Translations under genes and position numbers: made by a program
Assembly: GCA_030700315.1 (NCBI GenBank)
Contig: JAUYJO010000232.1
Location: 1-36,044 of the forward strand
DNA length: 36,044 nt
Source of the DNA: Gallionella sp.
Lineage (GTDB): Bacteria; Pseudomonadota; Gammaproteobacteria; Burkholderiales; Gallionellaceae
Reading direction: 5' to 3'
Notes under the pieces: model-generated
Told to the model about the DNA's origin: nothing
Seen by the model: only the letters and a program-made list of their open reading frames with translations
Database searches by the model: none
In this document: one piece after another, positions 20,449 through 24,204 of the stretch
Position numbering within the stretch: position 1 is the stretch's first letter
How the letters are laid out: each line of letters begins with the position of its first letter

Positions 20449-20954
20449 GGTATTTTCCTTTGAATGCGCATGACAAGACGTTCATTACGGGTGACGAGCA
20501 AGCGATCTGAAATGAATATATGACGAACATCCGGGCTGCGATTTTTCGCGCCGAAGTGGCCTGCGTGGCTAGAGATGGCTGGAAGCGGGATTATTTTTGG
20601 ACAGATGGCAATCGTGCCGATGCCACCGCAAAGCTTGCGCCCAAGGCTGACCGCCAGACGGCGTAACGCCATCCGCTGATCAAGCCACGAAAATGGAGGT
20701 CGATTGAAAAAACGAGATACGAGTACCCGGAACACGCGCGTCTCCTGCCTTATTGGCATTCTTCGTCAATTCCCGTTTGTATGGGTTAGCCATTACGGGA
20801 AAGATTTAAGAGACGTGTTCTAGGTCTCGCGGGTTCGATGCCAGGGTCAGGGGCAAACCGAACAGGTTCACAACATACTACTGATAATTCCAAAAATCAA
20901 GGGGGTTCTAAGTAACGGGTACGATCAAAAGTGTTGGTGCATCTTCTTACGTAG

Positions 20955-21033
20955 GGCGGATGAGCCGAAGGCGTTATCCGCCGAATGTTTCATCATAGGA
21001 GCGTAGGTCGGGTTAGCGATAGCGTAACCCGAC
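20955..21033. repeat. Two REP hairpins (GGCGGAT and GTCGGGTTA types)
   Basis: GGCGGAT (20955-20961) pairs with ATCCGCC (20976-20982), and GTCGGGTTA (21007-21015) pairs perfectly with TAACCCGAC (21025-21033). The first belongs to the GTAGGGCGGATGAGC family that also occurs at 24541-24697. Confidence 0.75.
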
Positions 21034-21061
21034 ATTTTGGCTTCGCTCGTCCAGCTTGGGG

Positions 21062-21174
21062 ATGAACAATCCTGGTTCAAGCCCCAAGGTTGAGCGTTTC
21101 GCTCGCCCCAACCACACCCATCGCAAGTTCCGCCTGTTCGTGGTTCTGGCTGCGCGCGGTTTTGCGCAGCAGCA
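21062..21174 (-). pseudogene. Duplicated 3' end of ANTAR response regulator
   Basis: About 113 bases match 22059-22173 at roughly 80-85 percent by eye, including the segment that encodes the end of the ANTAR domain (frame reads LLRKTARSQNHEQAELAMGVVGASETLNLG, compared with the intact gene). The last part of the copy extends beyond the gene stop, so a genomic segment and not just an ORF was duplicated. No complete gene is present here, and it probably produces nothing. Confidence 0.75.
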
Positions 21175-21211
21175 TACAAGGGGGACGAGCACAGTCTTAT
21201 CCGCCGCGTGG

Positions 21212-21553
21212 CTATGCGGCGTGATGAGTTTCTTTCTCCAGCACATCGATGATCATGCTATTCAAACTCACGCCGCGCCGCGCCGCTTCCAGCGCAATCT
21301 GGCGGTGCAGGTCACGACCGACCCGCACGTTGAATGAACCCTTAAATGGCTGCTCAGGCTTAATGCCTTCCGATTTGCACAGGTCGAGATAATCGTCTAC
21401 CGCCTCATGAAATGCTTTTTCGATGCCGGATGCGGTCTCGGCCTCGTAAGAAACCAGCGCGCGAATGTAGAGCAGTTTTCCGTGCAGCACACGATCTTCG
21501 GCGCTGTACATTACCGATCCGCAGTACCCCTTGTATTGCAAAATATCGTTCAT
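21212..21553 (-). CDS. hicB: HicB antitoxin
   Basis: A 113-residue protein: an N-terminal partial RNase H-like fold (ILQYKGYCGSVMYSAEDRVLHGKLLYI, GIEKAFHEAVDDYLDLC) and a C-terminal Arc/CopG DNA-binding domain (GSFNVRVGRDLHRQIALEAARRG, SLNSMIIDVLEKE). HicB neutralises HicA and represses the operon. Its ATG overlaps the hicA stop (ATGA), the standard hicA-first order. Confidence 0.94.
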   Translation of the reverse strand: MNDILQYKGYCGSVMYSAEDRVLHGKLLYIRALVSYEAETASGIEKAFHEAVDDYLDLCKSEGIKPEQPFKGSFNVRVGRDLHRQIALEAARRGVSLNSMIIDVLEKETHHAA

Positions 21554-21804
21554 GTCACACCATCCATTTCAAGCCTTTCAATCACAACTTCGATAACGTA
21601 ACGCTTCAACTCGTTGCTGGGATGCGGCTTGTGCAAGCTGATAGGCGCATACTCCGAATGAACAAACCGCACCGCAGAACCGCTGCTCCTGCCCTGAGTA
21701 CATAACCTGTATCCGAGCCCGGACAACAGGGTAGCCAACTCCTGAAAGGTAAAATCCTTCGGGCGGCTTTTGAGCCTCGCCAGCAGCTTTTCATGTTTTC
21801 CCAT
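21550..21804 (-). CDS. hicA: HicA toxin
   Basis: An 84-residue protein of the HicA family (dsRNA-binding-like fold, mRNA interferase): MGKHEKLLARLKSRPKDFTFQELATLLSGLGY, a GSAVRF strand and the closing HKPHPSNELKRYVIEVVIERL helix. The usual catalytic His in a GSHxxF motif is absent; the family branch with GGSxRRF in that place is known, so this may be a natural variant and not an inactive copy. AGGA lies 8 nt before the ATG. Confidence 0.9.
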   Translation of the reverse strand: MGKHEKLLARLKSRPKDFTFQELATLLSGLGYRLCTQGRSSGSAVRFVHSEYAPISLHKPHPSNELKRYVIEVVIERLEMDGVT

Positions 21805-21995
21805 GTGTAAATCCTATCCAATGACCGGGGATGTTGCAACTAAATATAGTTGCGTTGTCCGGGCGACGCCTTTCATCATATTGGGAAATTGGCTATGGCG
21901 AAGCATTCGGTTGCCATTCAGGCGAAGGCCGGTGTAGTGCCGCATTGGAGCAACATGAAGCGCAATGCCCGTCGTTTATTGCGCCCTGCGTGTGC

Positions 21996-22019
21996 TTCAG
22001 CCCGGCATGGCGGGCTGAA
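21996..22019 (-). terminator. Hairpin after the two-component pair
   Basis: TTCAGCCCG pairs perfectly with CGGGCTGAA (loop GCATGG), 57 nt beyond the ANTAR regulator stop. There is no T-run, so it may stabilise the mRNA end or be another intergenic repeat. Confidence 0.4.
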
Positions 22020-22058
22020 AACCGGCCTACCAGCACTGATTTTGGATGGTGCATGGCG

Positions 22059-22173
22059 AATGAGCAATCCTAAATTCAAGCCCCAAGGTTGAGCGTTTCG
22101 CTCGCCCCGATCACGTTCGCCGCCAGTTCCGCCAGTTTACGGTTCTGGTTGCGCGCGGTTTTGCGCAGCAGTT
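22059..22173. repeat. Direct repeat partner of 21062-21174
   Basis: This is the intact copy, covering the last about 95 bases of the response regulator gene and 17 bases beyond. With its partner it encloses hicAB and the 22000 hairpin, so the module sits between direct repeats about 1 kb apart. Confidence 0.75.
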
Positions 22174-22681
22174 CGAAAGCCGCCTTGCGGTCGAGGCGGT
22201 ATTGCACCATGGTGATGCCGATGGCGATGCTGATTTCGCGTTCGCTGTCGAGCGCCGCTTGCAATTGTCGCCCGGTAGCTTGCAGGCTATGGATGTCTCC
22301 GGCGCGGGCCAGGGCAGCCTTGATGGCCGGCAGCAGTTGCGGCATATCGACCGGCTTCACCAAATAGCCCAGCGCGCCGCAGGCGGTTGCCTGTTCGACG
22401 ATTTCACTATCGCTGTAAGCGGTCAGCAGCATGAACGGAATATGGTCGAATGAGTGCAGCCGCTCCGCCAGTTCCAGCCCGCTCCTGACGGGCATGCTGA
22501 CATCGAGGACAACCAGATCCGGGCGCTCCCCACCCGCTAGGATGGCCTCGGCATCATCCACCGATTCCGCGCTGCTGACACGATAACCCGCGCCGCTCAA
22601 CCCGCGTGAAAGTGTCGACAGCACCAGGCGGTCATCATCGACCAATAATATTTGGGGATTGGAAGGGGGGTTGGCATTCAT
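22076..22681 (-). CDS. ANTAR-domain response regulator
   Basis: Residues 1-120 form a receiver domain: acidic pocket DDD at 15-17, phosphoacceptor Asp60 (VVLDVSMP), Thr in LLTAYSD, Lys in YLVKPVD. After a short coil, residues about 140-190 (ISIAIGITMVQYRLDRKAAFELLRKTARNQNRKLAELA) are an ANTAR RNA-binding domain, which upon phosphorylation dimerises and binds two hexaloop hairpins to prevent termination. Its ATG overlaps the histidine kinase stop (ATGA). So this pair controls transcription antitermination of some target not seen here. Confidence 0.93.
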   Translation of the reverse strand: MNANPPSNPQILLVDDDRLVLSTLSRGLSGAGYRVSSAESVDDAEAILAGGERPDLVVLDVSMPVRSGLELAERLHSFDHIPFMLLTAYSDSEIVEQATACGALGYLVKPVDMPQLLPAIKAALARAGDIHSLQATGRQLQAALDSEREISIAIGITMVQYRLDRKAAFELLRKTARNQNRKLAELAANVIGASETLNLGA

Positions 22682-24204
22682 GGTTCAGGTTCCAGGGAAA
22701 TGACGGGGGGATCGAGTTCCAGCAGGGTAATCACGGTATTGCCCCGAGTCTGCCAGGAGAGTTTTGCACCCGCCCTGGGCATCAGCGATCTTACCAATTG
22801 CAGCCCGATGCCGGTATTGTGCCCGAAATCAAAATCGGGCGGCAACTGGCCAGTATTGCAAATGGTGATCCGGATAAAATCAGGATGCCGCCCCTGCTTG
22901 AGCAGGATATTGATCTGCCCGTGCCTCCCGCCGTGCTTGATGGCATTCGAGAGCAGTTCGTTCAATATCAACGCCAAGGGCACGGCTTCCGCCTCGTCGA
23001 TGGTGCAGGGCATCCAGCCCGAGGCAACTTCGACGGCGACTGGTTTTTGCCACAGCGCCCCCACACCGGCTGCCACCGCCTCGGTCAGTTCGCGCAAGCG
23101 CACGTTGCCTGCCGGCGCACGCTCTTGCAGGCCGTGGATCACCGCGATGCTTTGCACCTGGCCGATGGTTTGATTGACCGATTCCGCAATTTCCGGGTGC
23201 TTGTCCGCAAACTGACGCAGCAAACCGGTGACGCCTTGCAGGTTATTTTTGATGCGATGATGAATTTCGCGTATCAGCACATCGCGGTGGGCTGCGACAA
23301 GTTTCACCCGCTTGATTTCCTGAACGTAGGTAGCCAGAGTCATTCCGACCAGCGACAGAGTCAGCATGTAAAACCAGTAATTGATCAGATTGGTTTGGGT
23401 GATGTCATCGGCGAAATAACCGGTTCCCTGAATGGCGCCAAGCAGTGCCTGAACGGCCACTATAATCAAAACGACCGTTGTCCCGCGTGCTCCAAGAAAC
23501 ATGGCAACCCAGGTAATGAGCATGAACATCCAGTAGCTATTGGTCGCGTGGCCGATGATTTCGTGCAGCCAATCGAGGAAAACGATTTGGCCGACCCATA
23601 TCGTCAGGCCAATCAGCAAAACCGATTCAACTATCTGCCTCGTTTCGCGCCAGTTAAGTTCTGCCCGCCACCAAACCAGTATCAGCGGGGTAACCAGGAT
23701 GACCCCCAGCGTATCGCTCATCCACCATTGCAGCAGGCTTTGCAAATAATCTTCAGGGGCGAGCAATCCGGAAAACAGCAACAGCGCGTTCGCGGCCAGG
23801 GCGCTGATCGCGATGCTGACACCCCCGCCCAACAGGATCAAGCGCAGGTAGTCGAGCAACGATGGCAGACGCACATCAAACTTGCCGCCGCGCGTGAGCA
23901 GCCAGGCGCCGATAAACGCCTCCATTGCATCGCTTGAAGCGATGGCGACAGCTCTCCATAACGAATCGTCTGTGCTGGCTTGAACCAGAAGCGCGCCGCA
24001 GAACACGCCCCATACATACCGCTTTCCGCCAATCAGCAGCGCGGCCAGCGCCAATCCGCACGCCGGTTCGAAATGGCCGACAACCGCCTCGCTCTCGAAA
24101 AAGAACTCGCCAACGTAGAGCAACAATGCGTAGAGCGCGGCGATGCCGAGCTGTTTCAGCCATTCAACCGAAGTATTCGAAAATGCAAATTTATAAGTAG
24201 GCAT
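22678..24204 (-). CDS. MASE1 membrane sensor histidine kinase (HisKA_2 type)
   Basis: A 508-residue sensor kinase. Residues about 15-295 are a multi-helix MASE1-like membrane sensor domain, and residues about 306-370 the HisKA_2 dimerisation domain with phospho-histidine in REIHHRIKNNLQG (His315/316). The C-terminus is a HATPase with N box LILNELLSNAIKHG and G boxes around TGIGLQLVRSL. It autophosphorylates and hands the phosphate to the ANTAR regulator encoded next. The signal sensed is unknown. Its ATG at 24204 has no ribosome binding site in view, and 24205-24816 upstream is full of repeats. Confidence 0.93.
   Translation of the reverse strand: MPTYKFAFSNTSVEWLKQLGIAALYALLLYVGEFFFESEAVVGHFEPACGLALAALLIGGKRYVWGVFCGALLVQASTDDSLWRAVAIASSDAMEAFIGAWLLTRGGKFDVRLPSLLDYLRLILLGGGVSIAISALAANALLLFSGLLAPEDYLQSLLQWWMSDTLGVILVTPLILVWWRAELNWRETRQIVESVLLIGLTIWVGQIVFLDWLHEIIGHATNSYWMFMLITWVAMFLGARGTTVVLIIVAVQALLGAIQGTGYFADDITQTNLINYWFYMLTLSLVGMTLATYVQEIKRVKLVAAHRDVLIREIHHRIKNNLQGVTGLLRQFADKHPEIAESVNQTIGQVQSIAVIHGLQERAPAGNVRLRELTEAVAAGVGALWQKPVAVEVASGWMPCTIDEAEAVPLALILNELLSNAIKHGGRHGQINILLKQGRHPDFIRITICNTGQLPPDFDFGHNTGIGLQLVRSLMPRAGAKLSWQTRGNTVITLLELDPPVISLEPEP

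Follow-up and report, generated by a model that had tools for sequence, protein, structure and literature searches.

The locus lies on the reverse strand of a window of 36,044 nucleotides, the whole stretch of DNA that was analysed, which belongs to a metagenome assembly of 243 contigs and 3,517,500 bases (completeness 95.47, contamination 5.43%). The gene of a MASE1 sensor histidine kinase (22678-24204; PF05231, PF07568 and PF02518 above cut-off) is followed by that of its partner, an ANTAR response regulator (22076-22681, stop included; PF00072, E 1.7e-24; PF03861, E 1.1e-14). The assignments are backed by synteny with relatives for the kinase and by a 16-protein alignment for the regulator. 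The regulator gene has 201 codons and is intact with the tail attached to it, which extends from codon 171 to the stop plus 16 bases (22060-22171). A second copy of this tail, detached from the gene, is found on the same strand at 21062-21172. The two copies enclose an islet of about 0.9 kb that consists only of a hicAB toxin-antitoxin pair and REP-type dispersed repeats. Beyond the detached tail, another block of REP-type sequence, recognized by its dispersed-repeat matches (20916-21037), precedes the old downstream flank (20699-20902, reverse strand), a conserved stretch that begins about 20 nt after the regulator stop in Gallionella sp. STA_52 and less than 20 nt after it in Gallionella sp. 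nzgw563.

Both hic genes are open and overlap on the reverse strand in the order hicA-hicB. The hicA toxin gene (21550-21804) encodes 84 residues (PF07927, E 6.9e-7) and the hicB antitoxin gene (21212-21553) encodes 113 residues (PF05534, E 3e-18), both Pfam matches being above cut-off. This order, the 4-nt overlap and the two domains are those of HicAB type II toxin-antitoxin modules, and nothing in the predicted proteins appears unusual. PADLOC matched neither gene and comparison with solved structures yielded no useful match. A palindrome, GCAACT...AGTTGC, precedes hicA (21836-21853); it is conserved in the four relatives compared and is a likely operator. The remainder of the islet (21940-22071) is formed by REP-type repeats with many partial matches in the same genome and in other genomes of the genus. 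REPs are short palindromes, and on general grounds their activity was considered as a conceivable origin of the second tail. In another genome of the genus (G013), an ORF of 176 residues located between two inverted REP-type copies has a weak, below-cut-off match to Y1_Tnp and is perhaps a REP-associated transposase. Among the ORFs scanned between the tails, no Pfam match other than those of hicA and hicB was obtained, and PF00589 has no match on the whole contig. As no integrase is present inside the islet, it was classified as element-like or as a remnant, not as an autonomous element. Twelve Phage_integrase matches occur elsewhere in the genome, all on other contigs, and these integrases could act in trans.

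The original prediction, that the 3' end of the regulator gene with some flank recurs about 1 kb away with hicAB in between, is confirmed. The repeat search gave a direct repeat of 97 nt with 87% identity (21076-21172 and 22075-22171; 999 nt from start to start), which BLAST against the 3,517,500-base genome extends to 21062-21172 and 22060-22171 at 85% identity (E 4.1e-29). At this E value across the whole genome, a chance repeat is ruled out. The repeat starts at nucleotide 511 of the coding sequence, i.e. at codon 171, and continues past the stop for 15 bases in the far copy and 16 in the gene copy. Two blocks are exactly shared, one of 22 nt at the inner end and one of 34 nt across the stop codon. 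Between them, eight codons differ (seven amino-acid changes and one silent change), and the tails differ at 13 bases within codons. No third place in the genome matched the tail at E <= 0.001. An inverted repeat is present at the inner border, with arms of 6 bp in the far copy and 5 bp in the gene copy. It is weak evidence for an att-like site and carries little weight because such repeats are so common in the window (about 3 and 9 per kb, respectively).

The two tails are unequally preserved. Across the 16 aligned proteins, L183 never varies, and conservation of R181 and K182 is 90% or higher. All three residues are kept in the gene-side copy and replaced by H-E-Q in the detached copy (R181H, K182E, L183Q). 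Because of this loss, the detached copy is taken to be the one free of selection, the displaced and decaying end. It is also the copy nearer to the old downstream flank. Both tails share derived states that are absent from the aligned relatives (the TGA stop, ACGCTC and GGGGCT). Both therefore come from the lineage of the window or a close one, and any donor must have been close; the shared states also fit a local duplication. A very small number of positions link the detached copy to nzgw563 and the gene-side copy to STA_52, as might be seen with a sister-lineage donor.

Relatives were sought in 76 genomes of the genus, the genome of the window included. Six of them contain a regulator match at E <= 1e-30, one regulator each, the window's own being one of the six; two of these matches are distant (49% in G070, 42% in G073) and were not counted as orthologues. 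The three orthologues belong to Gallionella sp. nzgw563 (83% identity), Gallionella sp. STA_52 (84%) and Gallionellales bacterium GWA2_60_142 (78%). At all three loci the order is kinase, regulator, single tail and then the conserved downstream stretch. Relative to them, the window interposes hicAB, a second tail and a REP block between the same outer neighbours. None of the three genomes has a HicB match at E <= 1e-25, and the tail search of the genus, in which 10 first-look candidates per genome were scored, located the tail at a single place in each. Two short hits from the same search, 24 and 38 nt long and found in G019 and G055, look unrelated. The empty sites expected by the original prediction thus exist in all three genus orthologues, though in other species. 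A comparable second tail was found at none of 29 relative loci (L037-L065, including the three orthologues and leaving out L066-L074 of the named-genome scan), where the other matches measured 14-50 nt and some loci were short-flanked; paired tails without hicAB were accordingly not seen in relatives. The possibility that the tail is a multi-site repeat was rejected by the genome and genus searches, with two places in the genome of the window and one in each orthologue genome; dispersed repeats of the REP type do occur in the islet and the far flank.

The old downstream flank contains a conserved non-coding stretch (20736-20880, reverse strand) that follows the gene of the ANTAR regulator at loci of Gallionella, of Methylobacter type and of Burkholderiales, at the matching place in L037-L043, L045, L050-L058, L060, L061 and L065. 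Rfam gave no match to it. It is predicted to fold into two hairpins with loops of 9-10 nt, different from ANTAR hexaloops; of 20 predicted pairs compared in nine sequences, six are changed on both sides. Further downstream, a GTGTTC or ATGTTC resembling a start codon is complementary to the second loop (GAACACG-like). For 13 of the 21 sequences, no more than 25 of 500 shuffles produced a complement of equal length, and for the other eight more did, the sequences having been chosen by eye with 9 of the 29 loci left out. The stretch is a candidate regulatory RNA beside an RNA-binding regulator.

Close hicB relatives are present in 6 of the 76 genus genomes, again counting that of the window, and a search of 399 genomes drawn evenly from the order added one more (G273). 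Over the hicAB unit (21212-21853), nucleotide identity is 89% in G018, 84% in G052, 71% in G084 and 70% in G007, six first-look candidates per genome having been scored. In all four genomes the match is limited by the hicB stop and by the palindrome before hicA, and a regulator match at E <= 1e-30 is lacking from each of them. The rpoD gene is 94.5% identical to that of the window's genome in G018 (over 494 nt) and 95.5% in G084 (over 734 nt), so that hicAB, at 89% and 71%, is much more diverged than expected of a vertically kept neighbour. Judged by sequence, the hicAB cargo moves. As a new observation, the hicAB relatives of G018 and G084 occupy a tRNA-Met site that is elsewhere home to larger islands. 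They lie between rpoD-tRNA-Met and hrpA and are flanked by the complete tRNA and by a copy of its 3' half that starts within the anticodon loop. The repeat measures 51 nt in G018 (94%, spacing 1144) and 80 nt in G084 (95%, spacing 871). At the same site in G078, a full Phage_integrase gene adjoins the tRNA-Met (E 3.9e-29) and the tail copy is found 23 kb further on, beside hrpA. The site in G013 holds an interval of 7 kb that includes a partial integrase, whose Phage_integrase match is below cut-off; a tRNA tail copy adjoins hrpA in G015 and G083, and type I restriction-modification genes adjoin the tRNA-Met in the genome of the window itself. The rpoD-tRNA-Met-hrpA site is in effect an island hot spot of the genus (L132, L134, L183, L184/L185, L189, L190, L191), which may hold as little as hicAB or as much as about 23 kb including an integrase, the tRNA-Met 3'-half copy being at the far border. 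A 101-nt 'tRNA-Leu' called by ARAGORN over the tail copy of L132 was taken as spurious.

A location between gene ends is not a general rule for hicAB. It applies to 3 of the 11 hicAB or hicB loci compared (the window, L132 and L134), the coordinates of some loci having been placed by eye. The flanks of L135 share one match of 29 nt, those of L193 gave no repeat match, and those of L198, L199 and L201 have matches of at most 33 nt. Contig ends cut three loci, leaving 96 bases on one side of L133, none at L195 and 497 at L199. At L186 (G087, contig C48, 2249-3573), where hicB is accompanied by a partial hicA, a repeat of 105 nt and 70% identity was found, one arm of which is a weak match to a ParD-family antitoxin (E 0.0021, below cut-off). 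The adjoining ORFs weakly match ParD-family and TumA antitoxins, also below cut-off, and the locus is possibly a toxin-antitoxin graveyard. The hicAB unit itself appears mosaic when the window is compared with L132, L134 and L135. In blocks of 60 columns, the window shares 73-93% identity with G084 or G007 towards either end and 52-72% in the central part, the short last block being left out. In this central part, made up of the end of hicA and the start of hicB, the window type departs strongly from the type of G084 and G007, which gives the impression that toxin-antitoxin specificity was exchanged.

A carrier of the regulator tail was not found in the viral pattern scan, in which no contig had the tail pattern, nor in the genus search or the plasmid and phage DNA searches. 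The DNA of the islet matched no phage and a single plasmid, over one stretch of 165 bases. Relatives of hicB are present in 1115 plasmid and 15 phage records at less than 60% identity and in seven viral contigs at 51% identity or less. Among the open-licence PMC articles listed, no paper on this regulator/hicAB case was found.

These data are best explained by an insertion of the e14/icd type into the 3' end of the regulator gene, to which we assign a probability of roughly 0.6. An integrative element bearing hicAB, or one of which the islet is the deletion remnant, would have inserted at about codon 171. The final 31 codons and the stop would have come with the element, in a version that restored the reading frame and is now the gene-side copy, while the original end of the host gene would have been displaced beyond the islet to decay there. 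The insertion would have been performed by a tyrosine-type site-specific integrase, since lost or acting from elsewhere, and hicAB may contribute to the persistence of the islet, as cells losing it would be harmed. Support comes from the single-tail sites free of hicAB, from the pairing of a conserved gene-side tail with a decayed far tail and from the position of the latter towards the old flank. It also comes from the hicAB relatives in tRNA-Met islets at a site that elsewhere holds islands, one with an integrase gene, from the divergence of hicAB beyond that of rpoD and from the 12 Phage_integrase matches in the genome. The lack of an integrase in the islet and contig, the weakness of the inverted repeat, the missing carrier, the derived states common to both tails and the small share of flanked hicAB loci (3 of 11) count against it. 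The original prediction of an islet entering a gene end with a carried copy is partly supported, by the single-tail relatives and the conserved gene-side tail; the integrase is one that we infer.

The main rival, itself unlikely, is a RecA-type single crossover with circular DNA derived from a close relative and bearing hicAB and the regulator 3' end; it would give the same product with no integrase. The 112-nt homology of the tails, which includes exactly shared blocks of 22 and 34 nt, their common derived states and the absence of an integrase from islet and contig all agree with such an event; however, no such circle was present among the plasmids or phages searched, and the related tRNA-Met islets occupy the site of integrase-bearing islands. 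The derived states and the roughly 15 bases past the stop that are common to both tails, together with the decay of the far copy, would also be accounted for if hicAB and REP repeats had entered between two tandem copies of the regulator, the second of which was later deleted down to its last 96 bases. This history is quite improbable: it requires three steps and leaves the link to the tRNA-Met islets unexplained, the six genus genomes with a match have one regulator each, and none of the 29 relative loci has a nearby second tail. Finally, the second tail or the islet could have been misjoined during assembly of a metagenome in 243 contigs with 5.43% contamination. Such an artefact is very improbable, given that a single contig shows collinearity with relatives on both outer sides, that the tails differ at 13 bases within codons and that each junction contains sequence absent from the tails.

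Insertion with a carried gene end, the preferred reading, has a described parallel. In Escherichia coli K-12, insertion of the cryptic prophage e14 into icd has left behind icdC, which is 165 bp long and carries 12 nucleotide exchanges (PMC11148124; PMC6379469). On that description, in both cases an element is located in the 3' part of a protein gene, a carried end restores the frame and a slightly different old end lies beyond. The carried end amounts to 54 codons in icd and 31 in the window. As described there, e14 is a prophage with the integrase gene intE, whereas the islet of about 0.9 kb has hicAB and REP repeats and no integrase, and the detached end in the window is damaged at conserved residues, unlike icdC. 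Tyrosine-integrase islands at tRNA 3' ends similarly have a direct repeat of the gene 3' end at both borders, and hicAB relatives are found in that setting in G018 and G084; the window differs in its protein-coding target and its lack of an integrase. SGI1-type islands, which integrate at the 3' end of the protein-coding gene trmE, resemble the locus in their target; these large, mobilizable islands are likened to the islet by description and not by sequence (PMC8409611).

If the preferred reading holds, the locus would be a clean natural scar of the e14/icd kind in a two-component regulator, short enough to be read completely, in which a toxin-antitoxin pair is what remains between attachment-type repeats once nearly everything else has been lost. 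Its removal would have two outcomes. Recombination within the 34 bp that span the stop codon would delete hicAB and keep a working ANTAR tail, but a crossover in the inner block of 22 bp, the expected place for an integrase-type event, would leave the decayed H-E-Q tail. The earlier claim that recombination leaves an intact regulator therefore holds for the first crossover and fails for the second, and two different regulator proteins are predicted depending on the position of excision. It is also conceivable, with little probability, that the hicAB islet of about 1 kb is itself the moving unit, non-autonomous and without integrase, which enters the 3' ends of unrelated genes (tRNA, regulator) with integrases supplied in trans, is flanked each time by a copy of the gene end and is retained by its own addiction. 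Were this true, the crossover by which the islet is lost would act as a switch that gives the regulator either a working or a damaged predicted RNA-binding tail.
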